From a virus: a stretch of DNA of 20,044 nucleotides. The stretch covers positions 1 through 20,044 of the IMG/VR virus record IMGVR_UViG_3300049456_000079. One strand, given 5' to 3'. Positions within the stretch are counted from its first letter, which is position 1. Each line of letters opens with the position of its first letter. Below are positions 1 through 15,329 of this stretch, piece after piece. Under the pieces are notes generated by a model. That model was not told the DNA's origin. It searched no databases and saw only the letters and a list, made by a program, of their open reading frames with translations. A program made the position numbers and the translations under genes.

Positions 1-615
1 GCCTCGGGAGCCTGGTCTGAACCTGCGCGCGAGCACTTCGAGGCGCTCGGCAAGGCGGGGTTCGACGGCGGCATCACTGTCGGCCTGGTCGGCTGGGACG
101 AGGACCGCGCGATGGCCCGCGAGATGATCGGCATGCACCTGCGCGCTAACGGCCTGCCCGAGCCCACGTGGATCGAGGCCCGCGAGGGGTGGGAGCAGCT
201 CACTCTGCAGCAGATCCATATCGACGTGCACGGTACCCCGGGCGAGTTCGCCGTGCTGTACGCGCACACCAAGGGCGCTCGCGACAACTCGGACTGGAAC
301 GCCTGCTGGCGCCGGTCGATGACCCGCCGCGTCGTGTCGGGCTGGGAGAGCTGCGCGGGGTTCCTGGAGCGGAACGGCACCGACGCGGTGGGCTGCCATT
401 GGCTCACCCCTGAAAGGCACCACAACCCGCCCGACTACGTGGTGGAGTCGCCGTTCTTCGGCGGCAACTTTTGGGTCGCGCGGGCGTCTTATTTGCGACG
501 GCTGCCGCCACCAGAAACAGAGTATCGGCACCAAGCTGAGGAGTGGGTCGGGCTGTGCAACCCGACGGTACGCGACGTGCTCCCCGGCTGGCCGACGGTG
601 AAGCTATGTTCGTAA
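1..615 (+). CDS. Glycosyltransferase-like protein, 5' end outside window (partial)
   Basis: The frame is open from base 1, and the residues before the first ATG (112) align with the paralogue at 1224-1886, so the gene starts left of the window and only about 15 residues are missing. Shared blocks are YAHTKGA, WRRSM, VGCHW, GGNFWVARASYLRRLPP and W(V/I)GL..PTV. The H-T-K-G block followed by Arg, and the later GNFWW/GNFWVA block, recall bacterial glycan-biosynthesis proteins of the RgpF/HTK type. That family assignment is from memory, and no catalytic residue can be proved. It has no signal peptide or membrane segment in the visible part and is probably cytoplasmic. It ends with TAA, 18 bases before the collagen-like gene. 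The position at the head of a run of sugar-modifying genes supports a glycan role, but the substrate is unknown. Confidence 0.7.
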   Translation, partial: ASGAWSEPAREHFEALGKAGFDGGITVGLVGWDEDRAMAREMIGMHLRANGLPEPTWIEAREGWEQLTLQQIHIDVHGTPGEFAVLYAHTKGARDNSDWNACWRRSMTRRVVSGWESCAGFLERNGTDAVGCHWLTPERHHNPPDYVVESPFFGGNFWVARASYLRRLPPPETEYRHQAEEWVGLCNPTVRDVLPGWPTVKLCS

Positions 616-633
616 CTAAAACAAGGAGGAATC

Positions 634-1227
634 ATGAAGATCTCTAAGCGCCTTGTAGTGATAGGCGGGGCAGTCGTAGTCCTAGCTGGTGCTGGTTCAG
701 GAGTAGCTATGGCATCAATTCCGGACTCAGGCGGTGCCATACATGGCTGCTATCACCCTCAGACGGACGGACACAGCTCTGCGCTAGGTGTAATCGACAC
801 GGCCCTCCCTAACGGACACTGTCCATCAGGTCAGACAGAGGTCGACTGGAACCATACCGGACCAGCTGGTCCGACTGGTCCGGCTGGAGCTACAGGGGCT
901 ACCGGACCGGCAGGAGCTACGGGAGCAACTGGACCTGCGGGGCCATCAGGAGTATCGGGCTACCAGCTCATCACTCAGAGTGAGAATAATCTGGGTTCAT
1001 GCTCGGGCAGTTGGACCCTCAGTATCCCTACAGGCGATGTGGTAACGGGATCTGGGATAAGTACCGGATCAGCTCCACCACCCAATCTCTTCAGCCCGTC
1101 TACGGGACCTGACAGTGATCCTACTAAGTGGGATTTCTCTGCCACAGATCCTTCCACGAACATCATCGGGAACTGCGCTGGGTTCAACGTCACCCTCTGG
1201 ATGACCGTGGCGAGTGCATCGGGGTGA
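634..1227 (+). CDS. Secreted collagen-like Gly-X-Y protein
   Basis: This 197-residue protein has a classic signal peptide: KISKR basic start, a hydrophobic run at about 7-24, and an A-M-A end near residue 27. Next comes an IPDSGGAIHGCY block with Cys39 and Cys63 and then DWNHTG. That arrangement is common in exported actinobacterial proteins. Residues 76-108 are eleven uninterrupted Gly-X-Y triplets (GPA, GPT, GAT), a collagen-like triple-helix segment. The C-terminal 85 residues are Ser/Thr/Gly-rich with two Cys. A strong AAGGAGGA ribosome site (623-630) fixes the ATG. Codon use is more A/T at third positions than in the neighbours, which suggests recent acquisition. It is not a usual phage tail-fibre form, because those lack signal peptides. 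It could be a host-derived cargo (moron) gene displayed or secreted by the infected or lysogenic cell. Its stop overlaps the GTG of the next gene. Confidence 0.85.
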   Translation: MKISKRLVVIGGAVVVLAGAGSGVAMASIPDSGGAIHGCYHPQTDGHSSALGVIDTALPNGHCPSGQTEVDWNHTGPAGPTGPAGATGATGPAGATGATGPAGPSGVSGYQLITQSENNLGSCSGSWTLSIPTGDVVTGSGISTGSAPPPNLFSPSTGPDSDPTKWDFSATDPSTNIIGNCAGFNVTLWMTVASASG

Positions 1228-1886
1228 GTAGCATTAAGCACTTCTACCACCTATATATAGATGGTGACGCTGCTTGGGAGCCTATCGCGCTGGAGTACGC
1301 GCAGGCGCTCGAAGTCGCGAATTTCCCGGTCACCCCCTCAGTGGGACTCGTTGGTAAGGATCGAGGAAATGCGAAGCAGTGGCTTGCCCGGCAGGGATGG
1401 CCGGTCGTTGCGGAGGCAGATACGGGGTTCGAGCAGGTGACCATCACCGCGCTTCAGGCTGAGCTGGGGTGGCCAGATGATGCGGCGGTGCTCTATGCGC
1501 ACAGCAAGGGAGCCTGGCGGAACATGCCTAACGAAGACCAGTGGCGTCGGTCAATGCTGTGGCACCTGGTTATCGGCTGGCGGAACTGCGTTGAGTTGCT
1601 GTCAACGTGTCAGGTTGTCGGCTGCCACTGGATGGGCAATCACTTCGCAGGGAACTTCTGGTGGGCTCAAGCGGGTTATCTGCGGAGTTTGCCCCCTGTG
1701 TATGGGATCACGGAAGCGGAGCGAGGCCAGGCCGAGACTTGGATTGGCCTGGGGGAGCCTACAGTAGCCAACCTTGTAGCGGGCTTCGCCAGTTCAGAGA
1801 ATACGGAAGCGGGGGCGTTGGCCATATCGGAGCTTCTGCCGATGCGTCACGTCAGACGTCGCGCGATATGGGGTGCCATCGAATGA
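1224..1886 (+). CDS. Glycosyltransferase-like protein, paralogue of the first gene
   Basis: The start is GTG at 1224, which overlaps the TGA of the collagen-like gene (GTGA) and gives 220 residues beginning V/M-SSIKHFYHLYIDG. The open frame extends further upstream (1128), but that part lies over the collagen gene in another frame. It shares with the first gene the blocks YAHSKGAW, WRRSM, VVGCHW, GNFWWAQAGYLRSLPP and ETWIGLGEPTV, and a similar N-terminal half (GLVGKD versus GLVGWD). I read it as a cytoplasmic glycosyltransferase-like protein; the exact fold and donor are unknown. Third positions are less G/C-rich than in most of the window, like the collagen gene. The C-terminal 30 residues after PTV have no counterpart in the paralogue. 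Its stop overlaps the next ATG at 1883. Confidence 0.75.
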   Translation: MSSIKHFYHLYIDGDAAWEPIALEYAQALEVANFPVTPSVGLVGKDRGNAKQWLARQGWPVVAEADTGFEQVTITALQAELGWPDDAAVLYAHSKGAWRNMPNEDQWRRSMLWHLVIGWRNCVELLSTCQVVGCHWMGNHFAGNFWWAQAGYLRSLPPVYGITEAERGQAETWIGLGEPTVANLVAGFASSENTEAGALAISELLPMRHVRRRAIWGAIE

Positions 1887-2554
1887 AGGCGTTCATTATC
1901 TTCCGCGACCGGGTGGCTTATGCTCAGCGATGCATGGCGGCCATGTTCGCGGCAGGGCTCGAGCCGGTAGTCGTTGATCACGGCAGTACTTACCCTGGTG
2001 CCGTCCGCTGGCTAGGGCATCTGGAGAAGCACGATGTGAAGGTACTGTACCGCGGCGGAGGTCACCCCCGGGGGTTGTGGCTGTGGCCTCCGTTCCGCGA
2101 GGTGTGCGGCCCGGTCGACCGGTATATCGTGACCGACCCCGACTGCGTGCCCTCGGAGGGCTGCCCGCCCGGCTGGGTTGACCATCTGGGCTTGGTGCTG
2201 GATGCCTATCCGCGCGCCAAGGTCGGCCTCGGCCTGCGCATCGACAACATCCCGCTGCACTACCCCCGGCGCGACCACGTGCTGGAATGGGAGGGGCAGT
2301 TCTGGCGTAGTCAGTTGGCGCCCGGGGTCTACGATGCGGGTGTGGACACCACGCTGGCCCTGTACCAGCCGCTGAGCGTGGCCGGCTGCCACAGCATCGG
2401 CGGGACGCGAACCGGGCCGCCGTACACGGCCGACCACCTGGCCTGGTACGAGGACCCGGCCGCGTTGCCGGAGGATATCCGCTACTACCACGAGCACGCC
2501 GAGCCCGGCATCTCGTACTGGACGATCGGAGGGCACAGTGCCTGGGGAGCTTGA
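1883..2554 (+). CDS. GT-A-like glycosyltransferase (phage type)
   Basis: The ATG at 1883 overlaps the previous stop (ATGA) and gives 223 residues. A longer ORF from 1607 exists, but its upstream part is a shadow of gene 1224-1886. The N-terminus (KAFIIFRDRVAYAQRC, then VVVDHGST) resembles the nucleotide-binding first half of GT-A/GT2 folds. The block YIVTDPDCVPSEGCP at about residues 74-88 supplies a D-x-D (DPD) expected to bind metal and the nucleotide sugar. PLHYPRRDHVLEWEGQFW and the late HEHAEPGISYWTIGG are of a type seen in small phage glycosyltransferases. It has no membrane segment. It belongs to a translationally coupled run of glycan genes. Its 3' end overlaps the following methyltransferase by 17 bases. 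The GT call is based on motif order only; the acceptor is unknown. Confidence 0.7.
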   Translation: MKAFIIFRDRVAYAQRCMAAMFAAGLEPVVVDHGSTYPGAVRWLGHLEKHDVKVLYRGGGHPRGLWLWPPFREVCGPVDRYIVTDPDCVPSEGCPPGWVDHLGLVLDAYPRAKVGLGLRIDNIPLHYPRRDHVLEWEGQFWRSQLAPGVYDAGVDTTLALYQPLSVAGCHSIGGTRTGPPYTADHLAWYEDPAALPEDIRYYHEHAEPGISYWTIGGHSAWGA

Positions 2555-3116
2555 TCATCTCATCTGGCCGGAGATCCCGTCGGCGGTGACGCCGCCGGAG
2601 TCGCTGGCGCTGGCCACGCTGGCGATCGGCAAGAACGTGCTCGAGTGCGGGGCGCACTACGGGTACTCCACCGTTCTGCTCGCTTCGGTGGTGGAGCATC
2701 TGACCTCGGTCGACTGGCACCGCGGCGACGACCACGCCGGGCACTGCGACAGCCTCGGCATCTACACCGCGAACTTGGACCGCTACGGCGTGACGGACAA
2801 GGTGACCACACGCGTCGGCCGCTTCGAGGACGAGCTGCCGAAGCTGGCGGAGGAGGGCGCGATGTTCGACGGCGCGTTCCTCGACGGGATGCACGACGAG
2901 GAGTCGGTATCCCGAGATCTCGAGCTGATCCTCAAGCTCGTGAAGCCCGGCGGTTTCGTGGCCTTTCACGACTACGGCCGGTGCGCCGAGAACGGCCACC
3001 CCGGCTTCGCGGTCACGCCGGTCGCCGACAAGTTCGGCATCTCCGGCAGCGTGGGATTCCTCGGATGGGGTTTCGTCCCGGTGCTCCCGCCAGGCTTTCG
3101 GAAGGACGCCGCATGA
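2538..3116 (+). CDS. Class I SAM-dependent methyltransferase (Methyltransf_24-like)
   Basis: The start is GTG at 2538, preceded by GGAGGG (2528-2533), which gives 192 residues. Motif I is VLECGAHYGYST (34-45), the acidic residue after strand 2 is in SVDW (57-60), and FDGAFLDGMHD (110-120) followed by LKLVKPGGFVAFHDYG completes a Methyltransf_24/CmcI-type Rossmann fold. That family methylates sugars and small molecules, among other substrates. The fold is clear; O-methylation of a glycan is an inference from the surrounding GT genes. It overlaps the upstream GT by 17 bases. Its TGA overlaps the ATG of a tiny membrane ORF. Confidence 0.88.
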   Translation: MPGELDHLIWPEIPSAVTPPESLALATLAIGKNVLECGAHYGYSTVLLASVVEHLTSVDWHRGDDHAGHCDSLGIYTANLDRYGVTDKVTTRVGRFEDELPKLAEEGAMFDGAFLDGMHDEESVSRDLELILKLVKPGGFVAFHDYGRCAENGHPGFAVTPVADKFGISGSVGFLGWGFVPVLPPGFRKDAA

Positions 3117-3229
3117 TCCTACTCTGGCTCCTGGTGTGGCTGATCGAGAACACGCCAAAGGTGGAGTGGTTCGGACCGGTGTGGAACACGTGGGGGATCA
3201 CGCTGCTGATCTCGATCATCCTTCTGTGA
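3113..3229 (+). CDS. Tiny hydrophobic membrane peptide, 38 aa
   Basis: The ATG at 3113 overlaps the TGA of the methyltransferase (ATGA), which suggests translational coupling. The 38 residues form two hydrophobic stretches (about 2-11, Leu/Trp/Ile; and 29-38, GITLLISIILL-like) around a short polar middle with ENTPKVE. This could be one or two short membrane passes, or a hairpin. I recognise no family. GC-rich codon choice matches the neighbours. It ends 12 bases before the PLD-family gene, separated by GGGAGGG, so it may be a membrane partner of that protein or an unrelated filler. Confidence 0.55.
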   Translation: MILLWLLVWLIENTPKVEWFGPVWNTWGITLLISIILL

Positions 3230-3241
3230 GGGAGGGACCGC

Positions 3242-3781
3242 ATGCTGCATAGCCTGAGCGAGCTCGACACGTTCATCGCCGCTGGCGTGCCGCACGACTG
3301 GGCGCCGGACACGCGCACGTTTTGGAGCCCGGTCGACGACGTGCACGGGGCGCTCATCGAGCTGGCTAACTCTGCTTCGCTGTCGCTGGTGATGGCCGAG
3401 TTCGCCTATGACGATGAAGAGTTCGCGGAGGTGGTGCACAGAAAGATCGACACCCCCGGCGTGTTCGTGCAGATGAGCCTCGACGGCAGGCAGCGCCTTG
3501 GCCCGCACGAGCAGGCGATCCTGGCCAAGAACAACTACCCGGAAACCTCTCTCGCGTGGGGGCACAGCGAGAAGAACGCGTACATGCACCTCAAGGTGAT
3601 CGTCGTGGATGGCATCTACCTTGCCACCGGCTCGACCAACCTGAGCTCTAGCGGCGAGACCAAGCAGGACAACCAGCTCACCGTCACCGCGAACCCCCTG
3701 GCGTGCGCTCAGGCGCGGTCCAGGATCGACGTCATCCACGATTCGATGCTCAAGCAGATGGCGAAAGCGGCGGTCAAGTGA
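3242..3781 (+). CDS. Phospholipase D-family (single HKD) nuclease/phosphodiesterase
   Basis: The 179-residue protein contains one complete HKD signature: His116-x-Lys118-x4-Asp123 followed by Gly130-Ser131-x-Asn133 and a downstream Glu/Lys/Asp cluster (ETKQDNQ). Single-HKD proteins of this size resemble Nuc-type nucleases, which work as dimers so that two motifs form one active site. The N-terminal half (TFWSPVDD, LVMAEFAYDD, VFVQMSLDG) fits the first part of a PLDc_2 domain. It has no signal peptide, so it probably acts in the cytoplasm. GGGAGGG at 3229-3235 precedes the ATG. The substrate cannot be told from sequence: DNA, RNA or a phosphodiester in a glycan or lipid are all possible. It is a biologically odd neighbour in a glycosylation cluster. 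Its TGA overlaps the GTG of the next gene. Confidence 0.85.
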   Translation: MLHSLSELDTFIAAGVPHDWAPDTRTFWSPVDDVHGALIELANSASLSLVMAEFAYDDEEFAEVVHRKIDTPGVFVQMSLDGRQRLGPHEQAILAKNNYPETSLAWGHSEKNAYMHLKVIVVDGIYLATGSTNLSSSGETKQDNQLTVTANPLACAQARSRIDVIHDSMLKQMAKAAVK

Positions 3782-4542
3782 TCGAGCCAACCGAGATCCT
3801 GTTGCACATTCAGGTCGTGCACGAGACCCTTCGCCAGACTGCGATGGCGCACGCGCAGGAAAAGATGGCGTGCGGCCACCTCCGGGACTGCCGCAATCTC
3901 AGGGCCGTCGACCGGGTGCGCTTCGCCGGCTCCTATCTCGCCCGGCTGCTGGCCGTTCTCCTGCCGCGCTGGCCCCGCGTGTCGGTGGTCACCCCCACGT
4001 GGCAGCGGCGGGGCCTGCTGCTGGAACGGTGCATCCCGTCGGTGCAGGCGCAGGAGTACCAGGGCTCGGTTGAGCATGTCATCGTCAGCGACGGCCCCGA
4101 CCCGACCCTGCCCCCGCTCGGCGGGATGGTGATGCTGCGCGAGCACGAGCCGGGGCGCAACCGGGGACTGCGAGCCAGGGATTACGGGACGCAGTTGGCG
4201 GACGGCGACGTGATCGCCTATCTCGACGACGACAACGCCTGGCGTCCCCGCCACCTCGCCGTGCTCGTCCGGGCGCTGCTCGACTCCGACGCCGACTTCG
4301 CCTACAGTCGAGCGATGTGCAGCGACGGCACGTTCGGCTACTCGATCGGGATCTCCCCGCCAACGTACGCTCAGATCGACACGTCCCTCATCGTGCACCG
4401 CCGGGAGCTGCTGGGCAAGGCCCGCTGGCAGGAGTCGGATGAGCCCGCGGACTGGAACATCGTCCGGCGCTGGCTCGGGGTGGGCGCAAAGTGGGCCTTC
4501 GTCCCCGAGATCACACTCGACTACTACGTGGGGAAGACATGA
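3778..4542 (+). CDS. GT2-family glycosyltransferase with N-terminal helical extension
   Basis: The start is GTG at 3778, overlapping the previous stop, and gives 254 residues. Residues 1-65 are a mostly helical extension with Cys32, His34 and Cys38 (ACGHLRDC) that is not part of the usual GT2 fold. From residue 67, RVSVVTPTWQRRGLLLERCI, then VEHVIVSDG (Asp105) and GDVIAYLDDDNAWRPRHL (Asp150-152) give the expected GT2 order: strand 1, first Asp, and DxD metal/nucleotide-sugar site. The later ES.EPADWNIVRRWL block supplies the acidic residue commonly used as base. It is a cytoplasmic enzyme; donor and acceptor are unknown. The ATG of the GT4 gene overlaps its TGA. Confidence 0.88.
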   Translation: MIEPTEILLHIQVVHETLRQTAMAHAQEKMACGHLRDCRNLRAVDRVRFAGSYLARLLAVLLPRWPRVSVVTPTWQRRGLLLERCIPSVQAQEYQGSVEHVIVSDGPDPTLPPLGGMVMLREHEPGRNRGLRARDYGTQLADGDVIAYLDDDNAWRPRHLAVLVRALLDSDADFAYSRAMCSDGTFGYSIGISPPTYAQIDTSLIVHRRELLGKARWQESDEPADWNIVRRWLGVGAKWAFVPEITLDYYVGKT

Positions 4543-5993
4543 AGATTTTCGCAGGACACGACGGCGGCTCCGGCTGCATGTACTACCGGATCGAGCTGCC
4601 CCTGCGCCAGCTGGAGAAGCATGGCCACGAGGTGACCTTCCGGTCGGCGGGCGACGGGGAGGGCAACAAGCCGGTCACGCTCCGGGACATGGAGGGCTAC
4701 GACATCATCATCGGGCAGCGGTTCAACACTCACCGCGGTCTGGAGACCTGGCGCCGCGCCCGCACCCCGACGAGCCGCCTCGTCTACGAGACCGACGACG
4801 ACGTGTTCAGCATCACGCCGGAGAACTGGCAGGCGTACCACCTCTACCAGCGCGGCGACATCAAGGACGCCGTTACCCACATGGCCGAGGTATCTGACCT
4901 GATCACCGTGACCACCCCGCACCTGGCTGAGGTGATGGCCGAGGAGACCGGGAATCAGAACGTGGCTGTGCTGCCCAACTGCGTGCCCGCCTGGGTGACG
5001 GAGACCGAGTGGGAGCACGGCGCGCGGCCGTCCGTCGGCTGGCAGGGCGGCGGCAGCCACGGGATCGACGTAGGGATCATCGCGCACCCGGTACGCCGGT
5101 TCCTGAAGCGCTTCCCCGGCTGGGATCTGCGCATCGGCGGCACCGACTTCCGGCCCACCTTCAAGGTTCCGGGCGACCGCGCCGTCTTCACTGACTGGGT
5201 ACCGGCCTACGAGAACCCGTCCGGCTTCTATTCCACCATTGACTGGGACATCGGCCTCGCCCCGCTCGTCCCGAAGAACTTCAATGCGTCCAAGAGCAAC
5301 GTCAAGGTTTTGGAGTATGCAGCTCGCGGTATCCCGTCCATCGCCAGCGACCACCCTGTTTACAGCGGCTTCATCAAGCACGGCGAGAACGGGTTCTTGG
5401 TTAAGCGGGACCACGAGTGGCTTTACTACATGTCGGAGCTGGCCTCTGACGACGACCTGCGCCGGAAGATGGGCGAGCGGGCCAGGCAGGACGCGAAGGC
5501 TTGGACGATCGAGGAGCACTGGAAACTGTGGGAGCAGGCTTACGCTTCCCTGTTCCGGTCTAATAAAGTATCGTTATCCGAAATCCGAACGGAGCATCGT
5601 GACGCGAGTTCTGCTAACCGGCGCAGGCGGCTTCGCCGGCCATCACTGCCTGGAGCACATCCTGGCCACGACCGACTGGGACGTGGTTGTCACCGACAGC
5701 TTCCGGCACAAGGGCAAGACCGACCGCATCGCCGAGGTGCTCGACGCCCAGCCCGACACCTGGCGCAAGCGCGTGTCGGTCGTCACGCACGACCTGGCCG
5801 CCCCGTTCAGCACCCAGGGCATCGGCCAGATGCGGCCTATCGACTACGTGGTGGCCTACGCCTCCGACAGCCACGTCAACCGGTCGATCAGCGATCCGGT
5901 GCCGTTCGTGCTCAACAACACCAGCATCGCGCTGACCACCCTAGAGCTGTGCCGCCAGCTGAAGCCGAAGGCCCTGGTATGGGTGTCCACTGA
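4539..5993 (+). CDS. GT4-family glycosyltransferase; 3' part of the ORF is probably a frameshift run-on
   Basis: The ATG at 4539 overlaps the GT2 stop. Residues 1-340 are a GT-B/GT4 glycosyltransferase: N-terminal GGSGCMYYRIELPLRQL, YETDDDV, LPNCVP, a WQGGGSHG loop, IGLAPLVP, and the donor-binding SNVKVLEYAARGIPSIAS, ending in W..AYASLF near base 5555. The frame then stays open to 5993, but over 5599-5993 it lies on the next gene in another frame and becomes Arg/Pro/Gln/His-rich, so that part looks non-coding. One extra base in the A-run at 5580-5582 would end the protein in the TGA at 5600-5602, overlapping GTG 5599 as at other junctions. An alternative is a TAATAA at 5561 in that same frame. 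Catalytic domain is confident; the stated 3' end is not. Confidence 0.75.
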   Translation: MKIFAGHDGGSGCMYYRIELPLRQLEKHGHEVTFRSAGDGEGNKPVTLRDMEGYDIIIGQRFNTHRGLETWRRARTPTSRLVYETDDDVFSITPENWQAYHLYQRGDIKDAVTHMAEVSDLITVTTPHLAEVMAEETGNQNVAVLPNCVPAWVTETEWEHGARPSVGWQGGGSHGIDVGIIAHPVRRFLKRFPGWDLRIGGTDFRPTFKVPGDRAVFTDWVPAYENPSGFYSTIDWDIGLAPLVPKNFNASKSNVKVLEYAARGIPSIASDHPVYSGFIKHGENGFLVKRDHEWLYYMSELASDDDLRRKMGERARQDAKAWTIEEHWKLWEQAYASLFRSNKVSLSEIRTEHRDASSANRRRRLRRPSLPGAHPGHDRLGRGCHRQLPAQGQDRPHRRGARRPARHLAQARVGRHARPGRPVQHPGHRPDAAYRLRGGLRLRQPRQPVDQRSGAVRAQQHQHRADHPRAVPPAEAEGPGMGVH

Positions 5994-6612
5994 CGAGGTG
6001 TACGGGCCGCAGCCGACCGGCACCCCGCCGTTCCCCGAGTGGTCCGCGATTCTGCCATCCAACCCGTACGCCGCGAGCAAGGCCGCGCAGGAGGCGCTGT
6101 GCGTCGCGTGGTGGCGCACCTACGGCGTGCCGGTGATCATCGTCAACGCGATGAATATGTTCGGCGAGAGGCAGGACCCGGAGAAGTTCATCCCGATGAC
6201 CATCCGGAAGGTGCTGTCCGGGGACACCGTTACGATCCACGGGGAGCCCGGCGACATCGGCACCCGGCACTGGCTGCACTCCCGGAACCTGGCCGACGGC
6301 ATCGTGTACCTGCTGCGGAACAACATGATGATGGCGTTCCCGGCATGGCGTCGCCCGGCCCGGTTCAACGTCGCGTCCCCCGACCGGATCGACAACCTGG
6401 CCCTCGCGGAGATGATCGCCGAGGTAGCCAGGAAGCCGCTACGGTACGAGATGGTCGGCCCCGATCAGACGCGCCCCGGGCACGATCCGCACTACGGGCT
6501 TGACTCCCGGAAGATCGGGAACATGGGCTGGAAGGCGCCGGTGCGCTTTCGCGAGTCGCTGGAGCGCACCGTACGCTGGACGCTGGACCACCCCGAATGG
6601 CTGGAGGACTGA
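5599..6612 (+). CDS. NAD-dependent sugar-nucleotide dehydratase/epimerase (RmlB-like extended SDR)
   Basis: The start is GTG at 5599 with GGAG at 5591-5594, giving 337 residues. The NAD-binding motif is TGAGGFAG (7-14), with Asp33 ending strand 2. STDEVYG (130-136) carries the Thr-Asp-Glu triad typical of dTDP-glucose 4,6-dehydratases, and Tyr157-x3-Lys161 (YAASK) is the SDR catalytic pair. The N-x-FG block (MNMFGERQDPEKFIP), the GTRHWLHSRN block and RFNVASPDRIDNLALA match the extended SDR sugar-binding half. The TDE triad favours a 4,6-dehydratase making a 4-keto-6-deoxy sugar nucleotide, but an epimerase or decarboxylase role cannot be excluded. It would supply a modified donor to the neighbouring transferases. 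The ORF extends upstream to 5239 only as a shadow of the GT4 gene. Confidence 0.9.
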   Translation: MTRVLLTGAGGFAGHHCLEHILATTDWDVVVTDSFRHKGKTDRIAEVLDAQPDTWRKRVSVVTHDLAAPFSTQGIGQMRPIDYVVAYASDSHVNRSISDPVPFVLNNTSIALTTLELCRQLKPKALVWVSTDEVYGPQPTGTPPFPEWSAILPSNPYAASKAAQEALCVAWWRTYGVPVIIVNAMNMFGERQDPEKFIPMTIRKVLSGDTVTIHGEPGDIGTRHWLHSRNLADGIVYLLRNNMMMAFPAWRRPARFNVASPDRIDNLALAEMIAEVARKPLRYEMVGPDQTRPGHDPHYGLDSRKIGNMGWKAPVRFRESLERTVRWTLDHPEWLED

Positions 6613-6614
6613 CC

Positions 6615-6809
6615 ATGAGCCGGGAGAAGAACAGGCCGCGGCAGGAGACGCGCGGTGGCGACAAGATCGACTGGGCGTCGGCCAGGCCGGGTGAGCCGCT
6701 GCCCGAGCGCCTCGATCAGATCGCCGAGACGCCAGACGAGCCGGGTGTGCTTGACTACGAAGAGCACGGCGGAATCGAGATCGACAACGGACCGGAAGGC
6801 GGAGTATGA
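6615..6809 (+). CDS. Small acidic protein, unknown function
   Basis: The ATG at 6615 follows GGAGG (6603-6607), two bases after the epimerase stop, and gives 64 residues. The N-terminus is basic (SREKNRPRQETRGGDK) and the rest is acidic and Pro/Gly-rich (EHGGIEIDNGPEGG), so it is probably poorly structured. I recognise no domain. Its reading frame uses G/C third positions, and its TGA overlaps the ATG of the next methyltransferase, which supports it being translated. Confidence 0.55.
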   Translation: MSREKNRPRQETRGGDKIDWASARPGEPLPERLDQIAETPDEPGVLDYEEHGGIEIDNGPEGGV

Positions 6810-7354
6810 CCGCGATCAACATCTCCACATCAGAGCGCATCCGCGCTACGATCGCCGAGGCGAAGAAGGCGGACCTGGAGTGGGGCAGGAACAGGGTCGG
6901 CCGCGACGACCACCGGTTCCTACCGTGGATGCCGTTCTCCTGGCCCGAGTTCGTCTCCATGGTGGCCGAGGCCATGCCGGAGATGGCGGGCGATCGGTTC
7001 CTCGACGTCGGCTGCGGGCCGGGCACCCGGATGCTGCTCGCCCAGGAGATCTTCGGCCTCGACGTGAAGGGCTTCGACCGCGTGCCGGAGTACGTTAGCT
7101 CGGCCCGGTTGTACGGTCTGAACGTGACGTGCGAGGACGCGCTCGAGTACAAGGACTACGGCTCGTTCGACCTCATCTGGTTCAACCGGCCGATCCGCGA
7201 CCGGGAGCTGCAGTTCCGGCTGGAGGCGAAGATCTGGGAGGAGATGGCCCCCGGCGCCGTCGTCGGCTGCGCCAACCTGGAGAGCCCGCCCCCGAACTGG
7301 TACCCCGTCCTCGACGACTGGGAGGCCAGGCGAGGGGTGTGGCAGAAGCCGTGA
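6806..7354 (+). CDS. Class I SAM-dependent methyltransferase
   Basis: The ATG at 6806 overlaps the previous TGA and gives 182 residues. Motif I is FLDVGCGPGTR (65-75), then GLDVKGFDRVPEYVSSAR supplies the acidic ribose-binding region, CEDALEY is the adenine-contact loop, and GSFDLIWFNRPI holds motif IV. PGAVVGCANLES closes the sheet. The protein is short at the C-terminus, ending soon after strand 5. A 50-residue helical N-terminal cap (TSERIRATIAEAKKADLEW) precedes the fold. The substrate is unknown; a sugar or glycoprotein target is inferred from context. The GTG of the next gene overlaps its TGA. Confidence 0.85.
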   Translation: MTAINISTSERIRATIAEAKKADLEWGRNRVGRDDHRFLPWMPFSWPEFVSMVAEAMPEMAGDRFLDVGCGPGTRMLLAQEIFGLDVKGFDRVPEYVSSARLYGLNVTCEDALEYKDYGSFDLIWFNRPIRDRELQFRLEAKIWEEMAPGAVVGCANLESPPPNWYPVLDDWEARRGVWQKP

Positions 7355-7757: not shown

Positions 7758-7768
7758 GCCCGGCCCTC

Positions 7769-7797: not shown

Positions 7798-7807
7798 CGG
7801 GAGACCC

Positions 7808-8224: not shown

Positions 8225-8286
8225 TCGTCCAGGCTGGACTAGCCAGCGCCAAGGGCAAGTCCCACGAGCAGGGAAAGAAGGACTGA
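8161..8286 (+). CDS. Basic 41-aa protein, or displaced C-terminus of the upstream gene
   Basis: The ATG at 8161 gives 41 residues: a Lys/Arg-rich start (GKRQRKRIREGKASK), a hydrophobic middle (PVLIVQAGLA) and a charged tail (KSHEQGKKD). Third positions are strongly G/C in this frame, whereas the overlapping end of 7808-8224 is not, so this frame is the coding one here. It either is a separate small gene or is the natural C-terminal part of the upstream gene cut off by the 8-base duplication. No family is recognised. It ends three bases before the MAW gene. Confidence 0.5.
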   Translation: MGKRQRKRIREGKASKPVPVLIVQAGLASAKGKSHEQGKKD

Positions 8287-8289
8287 GCC

Positions 8290-8829
8290 ATGGCCTGGTC
8301 TGCCAGTGCTATCTTCCAGCAGGCGATGCTGAACCCGATCGCTCGCGGGGTGGCCGCAACCTCCGGATTCCCGACTGCCTACACAGGGCTGACGGCCGAT
8401 TCAGTGTTCGTCGCGCTCTTTAACAACACCACCGCGCCGGACAAGACCGCGGCGGTGGGCAGCACCGGGTACAACACCGGTACCTGGACGACCGGCAACG
8501 AGATCAGCTCCGGCGGCAACTGGCCGGCGGCTGGTATCTCCGTCGGCACCACCAAGACGTGGACGGTCGACTCCGGCTCGAGCTCACTCTGCTACCAGGT
8601 GACCGCGCCCATCGCCGGGCAGACCGGCCCGGCCAACGCTGTTACGCTGACGGGATTCTACGGCTGCATGGTCTATGACAACACCATCTCCGGCGGCACG
8701 GTTTCCAAGCAGGGCATGTGCTTCAACTACTTCGGCGGCACCAACACAATCACCTTGGGCAACTTCACCATCCTGTGGGCCACCCCGGCGTCGGCAGCGG
8801 TCACGGCTATCTTCAACATCTCGGTGTGA
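8290..8829 (+). CDS. Virion-type protein of the 'MAW' family (copy 1)
   Basis: The ATG at 8290, three bases after the previous stop, gives 179 residues. The MAWSASAIFQQAMLNPIARG start, VFVALFNNTTAPDKTAAV, TGNEISSGGNWPAAG and TITLGNFTILWA-type end are a pattern I know from actinobacterial phage structural regions. The protein is Gly/Thr/Ser-rich and beta-like, without a signal peptide. A similar protein (15910-16404) shares the start and the SS.GNW and G.F...W.ASG-type blocks. It is probably a capsid-associated or decoration protein; the exact role is not established by sequence. Confidence 0.7.
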   Translation: MAWSASAIFQQAMLNPIARGVAATSGFPTAYTGLTADSVFVALFNNTTAPDKTAAVGSTGYNTGTWTTGNEISSGGNWPAAGISVGTTKTWTVDSGSSSLCYQVTAPIAGQTGPANAVTLTGFYGCMVYDNTISGGTVSKQGMCFNYFGGTNTITLGNFTILWATPASAAVTAIFNISV

Positions 8830-8830
8830 C

Positions 8831-10273
8831 ATGACGACCGCCGCGAAGACCGAGGCCCGGGTACTGTGCTGCCCGGTGCAGCCGTACCCGGAGGCGATGC
8901 ACGCGCTGATGAGGTACGCGCCGCAGGCCGATGTGGTGCCGCTGGCAGAGGACGACAAGTTCGGCTACTGGCGCGAGATCCGGAAACGCTGGACCGGCGA
9001 GCGCGACCTGATCATCATCGAGCAGGACATCGAGATCGCCGACGGCGTGATCGAGTCGCTGCAGGAATGCGACCAGGACTGGTGCTGCTACGCCTACCCC
9101 ATCTTCCGTAGGCAGATCAGGCTCCGGGTGGGACTCGGCTGCACGAAGATCTCCGCCGCGGCCCAGCGGCTGGTCGGCGCCCGCGAGATCGCCGAGGGCT
9201 TCGAGCTGTGCGCGGCATGCAAGGGCGCTGGCTGCTGGTGGCACCTGGACGGCCGGATCACGCAGCTGCTGAAGCACCGCGGTCTCACCCCGCACGTGCA
9301 CGGAGACGTCATCCACCACCACGACTATCACGCGATGGACCCGAACGACGACGGGCAGCGCGGCTTTCCGATGGAGATGTTCTTCGAGAACGCCGACCCG
9401 TCGGCCCCGGCCCGGGTGATCATGACCGAGGCGCCCAACGGCCCGGCGTGCAATCCCCGTCAGGCCAGGCACGTCTCCAGTGAGCTATGGCGGATGGGCG
9501 AGGAGCTGGCGCAGGGTGACGAATCCTACGCGCGCTTCGTTGGCACGCTACCCCCGCCCGGACCGCCGGTGGCGTCGCCTGCGTACTCTACGGACAAGGT
9601 GAGCCAGGGGTACATTCCCGCCTACCACCACATCGCCGACCAGATCGGGCCGTCCGCCCGGGTGCTGGAGATCGGCGTCCACACCGGCGGTTCGCTGTCG
9701 ACCTGGCTGGAACTATTCCCGCAGGGAACCGTGGCCGGGGTGGACAACGACCCGCTCGCGCGCTGGCCAGAGGGAACTCTGCGGATTCTGTCCGATCAGG
9801 AGGACCCGTCCCTGCCAGACAAGCTCTACGAGTTCGAGGACGAGTGGGACCTGATCGTAGATGACGCGAGCCATAACGGGACGCTGACCGCAGCGACGTT
9901 CGAACTGCTGTGGCCGCTCGTCTCACCCGGCGGCTACTACGTGATCGAGGACTGGTTCGTAGGGTTCCCCGATTACCACGGCGCGTGCAAGAGCCCGGCG
10001 ATGCTAGCCACCGTGCAGGGCCTGCTCGACCGGCTGCACTGGGACACCGATACGGAGTCGGTGAGCTACCGGTACGGAATGGCGATTATCAGGAAGAAGG
10101 CGTTAGCTCATGAGTTTCTTCGGCGACTCCCCGGCGGAGCTGCTCTACGCGATGCCCGGCGTTGGCGGCGCTGTCACCGGCACCACCACAACCGGAACCG
10201 CGGCCGGCGGCCCGCAGCTGGGCGGCGGCGGCGCGTCGTCCGCGACGGTCCAGCCCGCCGAGCTTCCGCATAA
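8831..10273 (+). CDS. GT-A-like / SAM methyltransferase fusion; 3' end probably a frameshift run-on
   Basis: The ATG at 8831, one base after the MAW stop, opens a two-domain protein. Residues 10-170 are GT-A-like: RDLIIIEQDIEIADG (Glu64-Gln-Asp66 as DxD-type site), then WWHLDGRITQLLKHRG and PHVHGDVIHHHDY. Residues 260-425 are a methyltransferase: VLEIGVHTGGS (278-288), VAGVDNDPLARWPEG, LIVDDASH (341-348), VSPGGYYVIEDWFVG. This pairs sugar transfer with capping in one chain. The likely end is near residue 426. The frame then runs 160 bases into the next gene and becomes Arg/His-rich. One extra G in the AAGG at 10097-10100 would give ...IIRKKGVSS and a TGA overlapping ATG 10110. The fusion is seen directly; the biochemical roles are inferred. 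Confidence 0.78.
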   Translation: MTTAAKTEARVLCCPVQPYPEAMHALMRYAPQADVVPLAEDDKFGYWREIRKRWTGERDLIIIEQDIEIADGVIESLQECDQDWCCYAYPIFRRQIRLRVGLGCTKISAAAQRLVGAREIAEGFELCAACKGAGCWWHLDGRITQLLKHRGLTPHVHGDVIHHHDYHAMDPNDDGQRGFPMEMFFENADPSAPARVIMTEAPNGPACNPRQARHVSSELWRMGEELAQGDESYARFVGTLPPPGPPVASPAYSTDKVSQGYIPAYHHIADQIGPSARVLEIGVHTGGSLSTWLELFPQGTVAGVDNDPLARWPEGTLRILSDQEDPSLPDKLYEFEDEWDLIVDDASHNGTLTAATFELLWPLVSPGGYYVIEDWFVGFPDYHGACKSPAMLATVQGLLDRLHWDTDTESVSYRYGMAIIRKKALAHEFLRRLPGGAALRDARRWRRCHRHHHNRNRGRRPAAGRRRRVVRDGPARRASA

Positions 10274-10727
10274 CTACTTCTCCAAGGTCGGCAAGTCGAT
10301 CCTGGTCGAGGGCGGCGGGGTGGCCGTCACCGGCACCACCACCCCGACTCTAAAGTTCGGCGTCTACCTGACCACCCTGCTCGGCGTGCCGTCCAACTCG
10401 GGAGGCGTCACGCTGGCTTCCACCGGAGCGTTCACCACAGTCGCGTCGCTGACCCTGAACTGGTACTTCCGGCTGCTCACCACGTGCACTGCGACCGGTT
10501 CCTCGGGCGCGCTGCAGTCGATTGGCCAGCTGTTCTGGGGGCTGAACAACCTGACTACCAGCGTGCCGCAGCCGTCGTACCTGATGGGCGCGTCGTCCAC
10601 CACCCCGGTCACGTACAACACGGGCCAGTCGGTTCCGGTGTGGGTTGAGCCGCTGGCCTACTGGTCGGCAACCACCACCTCCCTGACTATGACCATGACC
10701 AACATGTTCATCTGGGGACTCAACTAA
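10110..10727 (+). CDS. Gly/Thr-rich virion-type protein, unknown
   Basis: The ATG at 10110 overlaps an out-of-frame TGA (ATGA) that would fit the upstream gene after a one-base correction. The 205 residues start SFFGDSPAELLYAMPG, then a flexible Gly/Thr/Ala stretch (about 18-50), then KVGKSILVEGGGVAVTGTTTPTLKFGVYLTTLL and a beta-rich remainder ending MTNMFIWGLN. No signal peptide or catalytic motif is visible. Composition and context (between MAW-type and repeat-rich genes) suggest a structural or appendage protein, and the Thr/Ser-rich parts are conceivable O-glycan acceptors. Confidence 0.6.
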   Translation: MSFFGDSPAELLYAMPGVGGAVTGTTTTGTAAGGPQLGGGGASSATVQPAELPHNYFSKVGKSILVEGGGVAVTGTTTPTLKFGVYLTTLLGVPSNSGGVTLASTGAFTTVASLTLNWYFRLLTTCTATGSSGALQSIGQLFWGLNNLTTSVPQPSYLMGASSTTPVTYNTGQSVPVWVEPLAYWSATTTSLTMTMTNMFIWGLN

Positions 10728-10738
10728 AGGGGAACGGC

Positions 10739-11038: not shown

Positions 11039-11077
11039 GAGGGCGACTGACCCGATCCTGACGGCGGGAGGTGACCT

Positions 11078-14000
11078 GTGGCCGTCGCCTTCGACGCCCA
11101 AGGGAGCGGCACTCTCTCCGGCTGGTCGCACACTAACAGCGCCGGCGGCAACGCGTTCGTCGTCCTCGCCCATGAAACGAGCAACGGCTCCGTAAGCGCT
11201 GTCAGCTACGGCGGGGTCGCGCTGACTAAGCTCGGCTTCAAGGCCAGCAACACCGCAGCGGACGGCGTGTCGCTATGGGGCAAGATCGGCAGCCTGCCCA
11301 CCGGGGTTAACACGATCACCGTCACCGGCTTCACCTCGTACGCCGGGTCGTGTTCCTATACGGGCGCAGCCAGCTTCGGCACAGTCTTCTCCAACAGTGC
11401 CGCGGGCGGTAACAGCAGTGTGACCATCACGAGCACCACGACTGGCGGTATGTGCGTCGTCGGCGCCTGTGACGGCGGGGCCGGAAGCCCTAGCTCCTGG
11501 ACGGCGACATCGCCCGCTAACCTGCGCTGGCAGCGGAACATAGGCACGGGTAGCGCGTCCGACAACGGCATGATGGAGGATCAGGCCAGCGCTGGCGGCG
11601 GCTCTAACACCACGGTCGCCTGGACGCAGGCTTCCAACGACTGGAGCGGCACGATCGGCGTCGAGATCCTGCCTTCCGGTGGCGGCGGCTCTGGCGGCGG
11701 GGGAGTCTCCTGGGCCAGGCGCACCGGTATTACTCAGCGCTTCCACCACCGCGGATACAGCCAGCAGCAGGCGCAGCAGGTATTCACCCCGGCCCTGGTC
11801 GTCACCGCCGGGCTGGCCACCGCAGTCGGCCAGGCGATGGACACCCCCGACGGCACCGTCCTCGCGCTCACCCCGGGACTGGCCACCGCGACGGCTGAGG
11901 CGCTCGATAACGTGGACGGCTTGAAGGTCGGCCTTACCCCCGGGCTGGCGAACGGGCTCAGCCAGGTGATGGACGTAGGCGACGGCCTGGTTCTGGCGAT
12001 CATCCCGGGTCTGGCCAGCGGTACCGGAGCCGCTAACGCACCACCAGCTATCGGCCTCACCCCCGGACTCGCCAACGGCATCGGCTCCGCGCCGGACTAC
12101 CTGCAGGGCCTGACTTTCACCGGCGTCGTCTCCAGCATCGCCGTCTCCTGGCCCGGACGGCCCGGCACAGCCCAGCGATTCCACCACCGCGGCGCTCGCT
12201 CGCAGCAGGCGCAGCCGGTGTTCAGCATCCCCTCGATAACCGTCACCGTGACCGTGCCGGGAACCAACGGCTCCAGCGTCAAGATTCTCGTTCTCACCGG
12301 GGCAAACGAGGGGGGCGGCGCGCAGAACAGCGCCGAGGTCACCAGCGGCGTCCTCACCTGGCCTCTCACTCCGAACGGCACCAACTCGCTACCCTGCCTG
12401 GTCATCTACGACGAGACCGGCGGGAGCTCGGGCGAGTTCACCGCCGCGACGAACAACACCCTGATAGACAACAGCATCCAGCATGACGCGTTCGCCGACG
12501 GCTACTACTCCGGCTCTGTCAGCTCCGGCACCGGCATCACGCTGGGCACGTCCGCGCCGTCCAACACGAACAAGCGGTGCGGGTCCGCGTACGAGGTGCT
12601 GGCGTCCGGCGGTTCCACCCCGTCTATTGACGCCAGCACGCCGCCCGTGGCCATCTCGGCGTCGAACGTGGTCACGACCACTTCCTTCACTCCCCCCGCC
12701 GGGGCGGTCCTGGTTGCGCTCGCCACCGGGAACAACACCGGTACCTCCGAGACGATCAGCGATACCCGAGGTCTGACCTGGACGCAGCGGTCGTCGTTCA
12801 ACGGCGGCGGCGGCATTACCTCGATCTGGACGGCCACGGTACCCGGCGGAGGCAATCTATCGGTCAACGCCGGGCTGGCGACCGGCACCGGCTCGGCCGC
12901 CGACTGGAGCACCGGCCTCGGCGTCGGGCTGGGCAGCTCGGTCGCCTCGGGCACGGGCGCCGCCGCGCAGCCCGGATACGCCCTCGCTGGGGGACTGGCG
13001 ACCTCGACGGGTGCTTCGGCCGGACCCGGGGTAGAGCTCACGACCGGCCTGGCCACCGGGACCGGCACCGCCGCGCAGCCCGGGATAGGGCTCACGACCG
13101 GCCTGGCCACCGGAACCGGCGCGGCGCTCCAGCCCGGATATGCCCTCGCCGGGGGACTGGCCACTTCCGTCGGCGCTTCCCCCGGTCCCGGCATCGAGTT
13201 GACGACCGGCCTGGCCACTGGCATTGGCTCAGCTCAGCAGCCGGGCATCGGACTCACCCCGGGTCTGGCCACCGGGACCGGCGCGGCGCTCCAGCCCGGA
13301 TACGCCCTCGTCGGCGGCCTGGCCACTTCCACCGGTGCTTCCCCCGGCCCTGGCATCGAGCTCACGACCGGCCTGGCAGTCGGCACCGGCGCGGCGTCCG
13401 ATTGGAGCACCGGACTTGGCATCGGCCTCACCCCGGGGCTCGCCATCGCGATCGGCTCTGCGCCGGACTACCTGCAGGGCCTGACCTTCACCGGCGGCGT
13501 CCAGAGCATCGCCGTCTCCTGGCCCGGCCGCCCTGGCTCTGCCCAGCGATTCCACCACCGCGGCGCTCGCTCGCAGCAGGCCCAGCAGGTGTTCAATCCG
13601 TCCGGGATCACCTCCCCGGCCCTGATCACCTCCGGGTTCGGCTCGTTCCCGCAGGTTCCGGCCGGGTCGATCATCGAGAGCGTGATCGCCGAGATCTACC
13701 AGTACGGCTCGGATGCGTCCGTCGGCCCTCCGACCTACCAGCTGTGGGACGGCACCAGCGCGCAGATCGGCGCCTCGGTCACCGGCAGCATGTCGACTAC
13801 CCCGGGCAACTTCGACCTGGTGGCGTTCACCGGGGTGAGCTATAGCCAGCTGGCCACACTGCAGCTACAGGTCTTCGGCGCGGGCCAGGTCAGCGATCAT
13901 GGTGCCACCGTCAACGTGGACGCGGTGGGCCTGTCCGTGCTCTGGCTGCCCAACCTGAACGGCAACGCTACGCCGGGCGACTCCCTGAACGTGGTGCCGC

Positions 14001-14635
14001 AGTTCCCGCCCGTCACCGCCAGCGGGGTGGTCAACGGCACTGCGACCGCCTCCCTGCTGGCGATCGTGCCGACGTTCCCTGCGGTGCAGGCCGGGTTCGA
14101 GGCGGGCAACGCTACGCCGGGAGACACCCTCGCGATCGTGCCCGTGTTCCCGCCGGTTACGGCGAGCGGGGTGGTCAACGGCACTGCGACCGCTTCCCTG
14201 CTGGCGATCGTGCCGACCTTCCCGGCGGTGCAGGCGGGGTTCGAGACCGGGCTGGCTACACCGGATACGCTGCAAACGGTTGCGGTCTTCCCGCCGGTCA
14301 CCGCGAGCGGAGTGGTCAACGCCACGGCCACGGCCTCGCTGCTGGCGATCGTGCCGACCTTCCCCGCCGTGCAGGCCGGCGTCCTCAACGGCACCGTGTC
14401 GCCGCTTACGCTGCAAACGGTTGCGGTCTTCCCGGCGGTCACCGCCAGCGGCACGATCAGCGGCACCGCGACCGCCGTGCTGCTCGCTGTGGTGTCGGCG
14501 TTCCCGGCGATCACCGACATCACCGGGCCGCCCGGATACGCGAGCGCGGAGACTACCCCTGGCGGCGGCTGGACCAACCCGGGGAGCGTGACCGGGCCGC
14601 CGGACGGATCGAATGCAACCTGGACGGTGCCGTAA
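11078..14635 (+). CDS. Giant repeat-rich appendage/fibre-like protein, 1185 aa
   Basis: The start is GTG at 11078 after GGGAGGTGA. Residues 1-200 form a beta-rich domain (VSYGGVALTKLG, GVNTITVTGF). A Gly/Ser linker at about 202-209 leads to an FHHRG cassette (about 210-238: QRFHHRG, then QQAQ.VF). Two more copies of that cassette lie at about 361-382 and 818-839. Between them are 18-residue 'GLATGTG' units (240-340 and 597-790). Residues 385-590 form further beta domains. Residues 860-955 hold a separate beta domain, and residues 962-1145 are 48-residue repeats (ATP.DTL..V..FP.VTASG). The C-terminus (residues 1160-1185) is GPPGY...NATWTVP. There is no signal peptide. The architecture suits an extended virion appendage. 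I do not recognise the repeats as a named family. Confidence 0.75.
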   Translation: MAVAFDAQGSGTLSGWSHTNSAGGNAFVVLAHETSNGSVSAVSYGGVALTKLGFKASNTAADGVSLWGKIGSLPTGVNTITVTGFTSYAGSCSYTGAASFGTVFSNSAAGGNSSVTITSTTTGGMCVVGACDGGAGSPSSWTATSPANLRWQRNIGTGSASDNGMMEDQASAGGGSNTTVAWTQASNDWSGTIGVEILPSGGGGSGGGGVSWARRTGITQRFHHRGYSQQQAQQVFTPALVVTAGLATAVGQAMDTPDGTVLALTPGLATATAEALDNVDGLKVGLTPGLANGLSQVMDVGDGLVLAIIPGLASGTGAANAPPAIGLTPGLANGIGSAPDYLQGLTFTGVVSSIAVSWPGRPGTAQRFHHRGARSQQAQPVFSIPSITVTVTVPGTNGSSVKILVLTGANEGGGAQNSAEVTSGVLTWPLTPNGTNSLPCLVIYDETGGSSGEFTAATNNTLIDNSIQHDAFADGYYSGSVSSGTGITLGTSAPSNTNKRCGSAYEVLASGGSTPSIDASTPPVAISASNVVTTTSFTPPAGAVLVALATGNNTGTSETISDTRGLTWTQRSSFNGGGGITSIWTATVPGGGNLSVNAGLATGTGSAADWSTGLGVGLGSSVASGTGAAAQPGYALAGGLATSTGASAGPGVELTTGLATGTGTAAQPGIGLTTGLATGTGAALQPGYALAGGLATSVGASPGPGIELTTGLATGIGSAQQPGIGLTPGLATGTGAALQPGYALVGGLATSTGASPGPGIELTTGLAVGTGAASDWSTGLGIGLTPGLAIAIGSAPDYLQGLTFTGGVQSIAVSWPGRPGSAQRFHHRGARSQQAQQVFNPSGITSPALITSGFGSFPQVPAGSIIESVIAEIYQYGSDASVGPPTYQLWDGTSAQIGASVTGSMSTTPGNFDLVAFTGVSYSQLATLQLQVFGAGQVSDHGATVNVDAVGLSVLWLPNLNGNATPGDSLNVVPQFPPVTASGVVNGTATASLLAIVPTFPAVQAGFEAGNATPGDTLAIVPVFPPVTASGVVNGTATASLLAIVPTFPAVQAGFETGLATPDTLQTVAVFPPVTASGVVNATATASLLAIVPTFPAVQAGVLNGTVSPLTLQTVAVFPAVTASGTISGTATAVLLAVVSAFPAITDITGPPGYASAETTPGGGWTNPGSVTGPPDGSNATWTVP
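12050..12224. repeat. Direct repeat, copy 1 (FHHRG cassette)
   Basis: This 175-base segment recurs without gaps at 13421-13595 (offset 1371 bases) with only scattered substitutions. It encodes a GL(T/P)GLA... APDYLQGL block and the W..R.G.AQRFHHRG.RSQQAQ cassette. The offset is a multiple of three, so the reading frame is kept. Confidence 0.85.
12968..13399. repeat. 162-base higher-order tandem repeat (three 18-aa units)
   Basis: QPGYALAGGLATS starts at 12968, 13130 and 13292, an exact 162-base spacing. Each 54-residue unit is three 18-residue sub-units: QPGYAL..GLATS, GPG.ELTTGLATG and QPGIGLT.GLATG. The third copy has two sub-units. The period is a multiple of three, so copy number can change without frameshift. 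Confidence 0.9.
13421..13595. repeat. Direct repeat, copy 2 (FHHRG cassette)
   Basis: This is the second copy of the segment at 12050-12224. It encodes the same APDYLQGL and FHHRG/QQAQ region, with few substitutions, and leads into a new beta domain instead of a second repeat block. Confidence 0.85.
13961..14512. repeat. 144-base tandem repeat, about four copies
   Basis: Copies begin at 13961, 14105 and 14249 (144-base spacing), with a shorter one at 14390. Each encodes 47-48 residues built from two related halves: ATP.D(S/T)L..V..FP.VTASGVV and NGTATASLLAIVPTFPAVQAG. Unit lengths are multiples of three. Confidence 0.9.
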
Positions 14636-14645
14636 GCTGCACGTC

Positions 14646-15329
14646 ATGAGAACAGGCGTCGCACTCACCTTCACCGCTCACAACATCGAGCTACCCGACG
14701 GCTCGGAAACACTGCCGGGCACCGAGCTCATCGCGAGGAACGGCATCTGCCGGGCGGCGCTGCGGGACCTCGAGCTAGTTCGCGGGTATCCGCCGACGGT
14801 CGCTGACCTGGGCTGCCTGGAGGGAGGTTACGCCGCGGCCTTCGCACGGGCGGGCTACCGCACTTTCGCGTACGAGGCTCGGACCGAGAACTACCTGTGC
14901 TGCAAGTACGTCGCCGAGCAGCTGGCGATGCCCGATCTCCTCCAGTTCTTCCAGGCGGACGTGCGCGAGATCATGGGCGTGCGCGTGTGGGACGCGGTGT
15001 TCTGCTGCGGGTTGCTCTATCACCTCGACAACCCGGTGGCGTTCCTGAACCAGCTCGGCAAGTCGACGCGACGGCTGCTGATCTTGCAGACCCACTACTC
15101 GACGCGTCCGGACGCCGAGCATGAGGGCCGCCGCGGCCACTGGTACGAAGAGGGCAACACCCGGTGGTCATCGTGGCAGAACAAGCGGTCGTTCTGGCTG
15201 ACGAAAAAGGACCTGATGGCGGCGATGCGCGACGTCGGGTTCAACCTGGTCTTCGAGCAGTTCGACTACCTCGACGACATGACGGCCGAGGGGGAAGCTC
15301 GCGGCATGTTCGTGGGGGTCAAAGTCTGA
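14646..15329 (+). CDS. Class I SAM-dependent methyltransferase (CmoB/TylF-like core)
   Basis: The ATG at 14646 gives 227 residues. Motif I is VADLGCLEGGYA (52-63), the acidic strand-2 end is AYEART (75-80), QADV (103-106) carries the adenine-contact Asp, and DAVFCCGLLYHLDNP (116-130) is the 'GxLYHL' block shared with CmoB/mo5U34-type enzymes. Trp/Arg-rich SFWLTKKDLMAAM follows, then a C-terminal beta strand ending MFVGVKV. A tRNA or sugar target cannot be separated from sequence; position next to the repeat protein and GT genes favours a glycan or appendage target. TAAGCT lies seven bases before the ATG. Confidence 0.87.
   Translation: MRTGVALTFTAHNIELPDGSETLPGTELIARNGICRAALRDLELVRGYPPTVADLGCLEGGYAAAFARAGYRTFAYEARTENYLCCKYVAEQLAMPDLLQFFQADVREIMGVRVWDAVFCCGLLYHLDNPVAFLNQLGKSTRRLLILQTHYSTRPDAEHEGRRGHWYEEGNTRWSSWQNKRSFWLTKKDLMAAMRDVGFNLVFEQFDYLDDMTAEGEARGMFVGVKV

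Follow-up and report, generated by a model that had tools for sequence, protein, structure and literature searches.

The window, the whole 20,044-base stretch analysed, is a complete IMG/VR record and itself a fragment of a phage genome. From base 1 to approximately 16.4 kb, the called genes are all on the plus strand. The sugar-modification block in this part encodes a GT2 and a GT4 glycosyltransferase, two paralogues with a predicted GT-A fold, two glycosyltransferase-like domains seen by motif only, an RmlB-like dehydratase, and four SAM-methyltransferase domains. Genes for Ser/Thr/Gly-rich proteins alternate with those of the enzymes, and a head-tail connector and a tail terminator come after the block (Table 1). 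Stop and start codons overlap by 4 bp at g02/g03, g03/g04, g07/g08, g08/g09, g11/g12, g12/g13, and g16/g17, the last pair joining an enzyme gene to a structural-type gene. Scans of the window for sigma-70 promoters and terminators returned counts no higher than in shuffled sequence. The contig begins within the sugar block, and the major capsid protein (MCP) gene is absent from the window.

Table 1. Coordinates and assignments of the principal features of the window
Gene	Position	Strand	Assignment	Evidence
g01	1..615	+	glycosyltransferase of the g03 (GT-A-fold) family, 5' end missing at the contig edge	paralogue of g03
g02	634..1227	+	collagen-like protein between g01 and g03; passenger	GPAGATG
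g03	1224..1886	+	GT-A-fold glycosyltransferase, by family model	
g04	1883..2554	+	glycosyltransferase-like, putative	TDPDC motif; 55-60% in relatives L031, L033, L064
g05	2538..3116	+	SAM O-methyltransferase (Methyltransf_24)	PF13578 3.6e-19; 61-63% in L031, L070
g07	3242..3781	+	single-HKD PLD-like protein (NucT/DrmC-like); passenger	PF13091 3.8e-8; kept in L033, L070, L075
g08	3778..4542	+	GT2 glycosyltransferase	PF00535 9.9e-14
g09	4539..5599 (approximate end)	+	GT4 glycosyltransferase	PF00534 1e-8; phrog_7162 7.5e-47
g10	5599..6612	+	RmlB-like nucleotide-sugar 4,6-dehydratase	TIGR01181 2.2e-58
g12	6806..7354	+	small SAM methyltransferase	PF13649 3e-5, under Pfam cut-off; 45-53% in close relatives
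g15	8290..8829	+	Ser/Thr/Gly-rich probable head-associated protein	one profile finds it and its paralogue g23 in relatives
g16	8831..10113	+	putative glycosyltransferase-like domain fused to O-methyltransferase	PF13578 at residues 279-375, above cut-off
g17	10110..10727	+	Thr/Gly-rich probable virion protein	41% S+T+G; start overlaps g16 stop
g19	11078..14635	+	1185-aa repeat protein, probable fibrous appendage	39% S+T+G
g20	14646..15329	+	SAM methyltransferase	PF13489 7.2e-7, above cut-off
g23	15910..16404	+	Ser/Thr/Gly-rich probable head-associated protein adjoining connector	51% in G001, 48% in L005, same place
g24	16533..17462 (approximate end)	+	head-tail connector (adaptor), right edge of block	phrog_442 6.7e-27
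g29	19376..19786	+	tail terminator	phrog_17840 8.4e-18; 65-71% in relatives

The original prediction counted six glycosyltransferase-type proteins or domains. Two of these are clear, g08 and g09, whose NCBIfam neighbours are mainly exopolysaccharide and glycolipid glycosyltransferases. Two more, g01 and g03, are assigned by predicted fold. The other two, g04 and the N-terminal half of g16 (g16N), stay putative, being glycosyltransferase-like by eye alone (a strand, then DPD or EQDIE). No family match was found for g04 in Pfam, PHROGs, or NCBIfam, and profile comparison links it weakly to g16N (probability 11%, E 0.0028). The GT4 enzyme is 56-70% identical to its counterparts in close relatives. 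Its reading frame is open to position 5993 and so covers the first 395 bases of the dehydratase gene, which is read in a different frame; its homologues in two complete relatives end after 357 residues. The overrun may be a natural frameshift, a lost stop, or an assembly error.

The g03 family has no database name. Searches with g03 gave no family match in Pfam, PHROGs, NCBIfam, or, with the family profile, PDB sequences, and g01 gave none in Pfam or PHROGs. The single g03 sequence matched no viral contig, and a profile from a five-sequence alignment matched at least 576 IMG/VR loci. The two paralogues share 41% identity in alignment, and g01 is 50% identical to its homologue in relative G001. 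An AlphaFold2 model of g03 built with 51 homologues (pLDDT 91.5, pTM 0.89) retrieved nucleotide-sugar-type folds in Foldseek, including cytidylyltransferases, GtrB, and GlmU. VIA-align placed the glycosyltransferase domain of heparosan synthase 2 first (Z 12.0, 166 residues, rmsd 3.0), with those of hyaluronan synthase, ArnC, KfiA, and B4GALNT1 also at Z 11-12. GlmU-type nucleotidyltransferases tie with heparosan synthase 2 at Z 11.9, so the fold alone cannot separate the two activities, and it is gene context that favours a glycosyltransferase. Across the 51 family sequences, E70, H93, K95, R108, R167, and E171 are invariant. Judged from strand order rather than from a residue-level structural alignment, an HxK formed by H93 and K95 would stand where the metal-binding DxD that follows the fourth strand is expected, and E171 may occupy the position of the GT2 catalytic base.

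The RmlB-like dehydratase expected from the original prediction was recovered. When aligned to solved RmlB, g10 has the TDE and YxxxK catalytic residues and the NAD-binding fold. It scores 197.9 bits against an NCBIfam equivalog cut-off of 365 bits, and for this reason it is described as dehydratase-like. Its identity is 59% in L075 and 41-42% in Streptomyces phages Zuko and KimJongPhill; an RmlC or RmlD partner was not found in the window. Likewise, the four predicted SAM-methyltransferase domains are present in g05, g12 (a weak match), the C-terminal part of g16 (g16C), and g20, the last 49% identical to the product of G001 32876-33541 within the sugar block of that contig.

Ser, Thr, and Gly together make up 37-41% of g15, g17, g19, and g23, versus 14-22% of the enzymes, in agreement with the prediction of Gly/Thr/Ser-rich virion-type proteins; the range for the paralogues g15 and g23 is 37-40%. 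The exception is g02. It matches collagen-like tail-fibre PHROGs (best 1.2e-8) and has a hydrophobic, signal-like N-terminal stretch (KD19 2.19 at residue 7), and the protein is probably exported rather than virion-type. Fold prediction for g15 and g23 is poor (pLDDT 38.7) and neither has a family match, so their virion status is judged from position and composition; by the same measures all four proteins are probable head-associated proteins. No convincing family match was obtained for g17. In relatives, the g15 homologue follows the sugar genes; in G001 and L005, the g23 homologue lies immediately 5' of the connector. The C-terminal part of g19 is kept ahead of the connector in L003 and L005. 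This protein is encoded with 54/162-bp and 72/144-bp repeats, and positions 11700-13650 hold three copies of a AQRFHHRGARSQQAQ-type module, the first copy being TQRFHHRGYSQQQAQ.

As predicted, the block lies just upstream of a head-tail connector, which is 58-63% identical in G001, G002, G006, and G008. The connector frame continues to 17672, whereas connectors of relatives stop near residue 310, and its last part overlaps an HNH endonuclease gene at 17462-18046. This HNH gene may have entered the 3' end of the connector gene as a homing-type insertion.

The comparison with related phages that the original prediction proposed was carried out, and it showed the block to be additional DNA that separates the capsid genes from the connector. 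A connector search yielded contigs G001 (90.8 kb), G002, and G003; G006 (185 kb) and G008 (159 kb) carry the connector as well. G001, G006, and G008 all have the sugar block in the MCP-connector interval. In G001 this interval runs from the end of the MCP gene at 26.7 kb to the start of the connector at 54.3 kb. It encodes glycosyltransferases and methyltransferases together with an epimerase and an NTP-transferase, and after these the homologues of g13, g14, g15, g16N, g19, and g21-g23 in window order. From coordinates, the interval is ∼30.5 kb in G006 and ∼22.3 kb in G008. It is 2.5-4 kb in small aquatic phages, and in Rhodococcus phage Jflix2 the gap between MCP and adaptor is 77 bp and holds no sugar genes. 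In the window, the GT4, GT2, and methyltransferase genes are all 5' of the connector, and the MCP gene would lie beyond them as in G001, G006, and G008. The small aquatic phages encode a GT4 enzyme, a g03-type glycosyltransferase, a TOD1/MUCI70-like glycosyltransferase, a methyltransferase, and a GT2 enzyme in this interval; the window shares only the g03 family with that cassette. The host is probably an actinobacterium, as suggested by the phage relatives and by a G+C content of 59-72%; the connector profile found no relative in 84,980 genomes searched for a host.

A further survey began from the g03 family. Eighty loci were fetched of the at least 576 matched, with MCP and connector recognised by their own profiles. 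The g03-family gene lies between the two in 16 of the 16 loci that have both markers, a count that overstates independence because these loci fall in five clusters at 70% identity. Other arrangements exist: the g03-type gene is between protease and MCP in L027 and upstream of the head genes in L035 and L040.

Gene content within the slot bears on whether the block is one system. Close relatives share a core of g01/g03, g04, g05, g08, g09, and g12, with gene order largely preserved. Sugar-nucleotide enzymes vary around it: RmlB-like in the window and L075; RmlD-like plus an aldo-keto reductase in G006; an epimerase, a C-methyltransferase (Methyltransf_13/14, a type acting on sugar nucleotides), and a cupin in G008; and an NTP-transferase plus epimerase in G001. 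The slot also holds the probably exported g02, HNH genes, a PLD-like protein, and, in G008, a TnpB-like gene, as might be expected if a hypervariable insertion site had gathered unrelated genes, only some acting on the virion. The recurrent core and the nearly exclusive content of sugar genes in the small phages' slot make mixed cargo of this kind quite improbable.

The closest experimental parallels are mycobacteriophages. Cluster O phages carry an O-methyltransferase and three glycosyltransferases between portal and protease, for which capsid modification was proposed (PMC4351075). Later papers relay results of Freeman et al. 2023 (PMC11600133, PMC11256854, PMC12619734, PMC12363180); cluster O capsid and tail-tube proteins are reported as glycosylated (PMC11600133, PMC12363180), and Che8 gp110 and Corndog gp38 as essential for capsid glycosylation. 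As in Corndog and Firecracker, multiple glycosyltransferases and an O-methyltransferase of the window lie inside a run of head genes. Moreover, g16C and, less clearly, g05 appear distantly related to the Che8 gp108/cluster O O-methyltransferase family (hhalign probability 94% and 35%, respectively). However, the cluster O slot is portal-protease rather than MCP-connector, and it has neither a dehydratase nor interleaved Ser/Thr-rich proteins. In Che8 (cluster F), gp108 resembles a glycosyltransferase-methyltransferase fusion like g16, although gp108-gp110 are at the right genome end, distant from the head genes.

Glycosyltransferase homology does not extend this parallel. Profiles of g03, g04, g08, and g16N reached at most 4% hhalign probability against Firecracker 36 and Che8 110, which as two sequences make a shallow reference alignment. 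Membership of g04 or g16N in the Che8 gp110 family, possible by eye, is unsupported by hhalign. The window does have the phage glycosyltransferases and O-methyltransferase that characterise the Corndog/Che8-type system. It is predicted to work like that system, although glycosyltransferase homology does not support membership in it.

A second parallel shares the slot itself. Phage phiPsal1 (MG835450), sequenced alongside Pontimonas salivibrio, a marine actinobacterium (PMC6106888), has GT4, methyltransferase, and GT2 genes between MCP and an HK97-gp6-type neck, matching the window in position and enzyme classes. Its neck is 36% identical to that of the window, and it groups with the small aquatic phages (MCP 89% to L078). 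By contrast, its cassette is 2.5 kb versus >16 kb in the window and lacks a dehydratase and the g03 family; its three enzymes matched no window protein at E 0.01. Streptomyces phages Zuko and KimJongPhill encode the closest annotated g09 homologues (36%), with dehydratase and GT4 genes adjacent, but the site is left of the terminase, the enzymes number only two, and no methyltransferase is annotated beside them. The statement that no described system has such a gene set at this site was thus too strong, given phiPsal1 and cluster O as close precedents. The island is real, large, and conserved, and of the virion-glycosylation type; its kind is known, and its size, site, and gene content are new.

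Taken together, the enzyme set, the single-strand run of overlapping genes, the MCP-connector position in relatives, the differing sugar enzymes, and the cluster O precedent suggest that the block is probably a module expressed late and active in the cytosol, where it adds sugars and methyl groups to the virion head proteins of a tailed phage. Soluble phage enzymes would draw on host nucleotide sugars, with g10 supplying a 4-keto-6-deoxy sugar nucleotide. The GT2, GT4, and GT-A-fold enzymes would then assemble a short glycan, probably Ser/Thr-linked, on newly made head proteins, and the O-methyltransferases would cap it. Expressed with the head genes, the enzymes may act before or during assembly. 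Candidate acceptors are the MCP and/or g15, g17, g19, and g23. The original prediction of virion self-glycosylation and methyl-capping is upheld in so far as the enzyme set lies in the head-gene region beside Ser/Thr-rich, likely structural proteins; the lack of precedent claimed with it is not. Capsid or tail tube are as likely to be acceptors as g15, g17, and g19, the proteins it had singled out.

Several observations weigh against a virion target. Gaps between structural genes commonly tolerate foreign genes. No homology to Che8 gp110 or Corndog gp38 was detected for the window glycosyltransferases. In cyanophage S-SRM01, the g03 homologue is near tail-fibre genes, not capsid genes, and 37 of the 80 g03-family loci show neither MCP nor connector.

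Alternatively, the enzymes might act in infection or lysogeny on polysaccharides of the host wall (side chains of rhamnan, teichoic acid, or arabinogalactan), so that superinfection is blocked or release made easier. Surface-polysaccharide pathways typically contain RmlB, GT2, and GT4 enzymes, the nearest named families of g08 and g09 agree with this, and such a role is among those proposed for phage glycosyltransferases in a Nanopelagicales phage genome paper (PMC10202952). Nevertheless, no membrane glycosyltransferase, flippase, or polyprenol-phosphate glycosyltransferase is encoded in the 20-kb window, and the glycosyltransferase-type proteins lack membrane-type segments (maximum 19-residue hydropathy 1.07); the fragment therefore does not have the membrane glycosyltransferase and flippase of GtrABC-type serotype conversion. 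This absence argues mildly against a wall target. The interleaving of enzymes with structural-type genes also speaks against it, as does the fact that several lineages have the block among their head genes. Host-surface modification is accordingly considered unlikely.

Glycosylation of bases in the phage DNA, known from T4-like phages, is an often assumed role of phage glycosyltransferases (PMC10202952), and diverse DNA glycans made by viral glycosyltransferases are described by Pyle et al. 2024, as cited in PMC12619734. A thymidylate-synthase-type enzyme (pyrimidine hydroxymethylase) was found in 0 of 7 relatives, which are possibly incomplete, and in 9 of 14 controls, again mild counterevidence. 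A search for TET/JBP detected none of its controls and is hence uninformative on DNA modification. Known base pathways do not include an RmlB-like enzyme or O-methyltransferases encoded next to head genes, and a DNA target is very improbable.

If head proteins are indeed the target, their modification might protect against host defences, alter adsorption, or simply stabilise the particle; shielding from mammalian antibodies, as reported in mycobacteriophages, is an unlikely selective reason in soil or water. One tentative extension, which we consider possible though somewhat doubtful, is that many uncultured tailed phages of actinophage-like type use the MCP-connector interval to set virion serotype. 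The conserved part of such a locus, comprising the unnamed GT-A family with HxK for DxD and the GT4 enzyme, would be combined with exchangeable sugar-nucleotide cassettes, so that related virions wear different methylated deoxy-sugar coats; large phages would add dedicated head-fibre acceptors. Reports of virion glycosylation in tailed phages appear limited to a few mycobacteriophages. A slot with its own glycosyltransferase family would, if real, make glycosylated virions predictable from sequence, offer a source of methylated deoxy-sugar enzymes, and allow the reason for sugar variation among phage particles to be tested directly.

Two individual genes inside the sugar blocks of relatives were also noted. 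L064:13730-15511, within the G008 island, encodes a TnpB-like protein with a Cas12f1-like TNB domain. L008:13613-15106, within the G001 block, encodes fused NTP_transf_3 and APH kinase-like domains, possibly a sugar kinase/nucleotidyltransferase.
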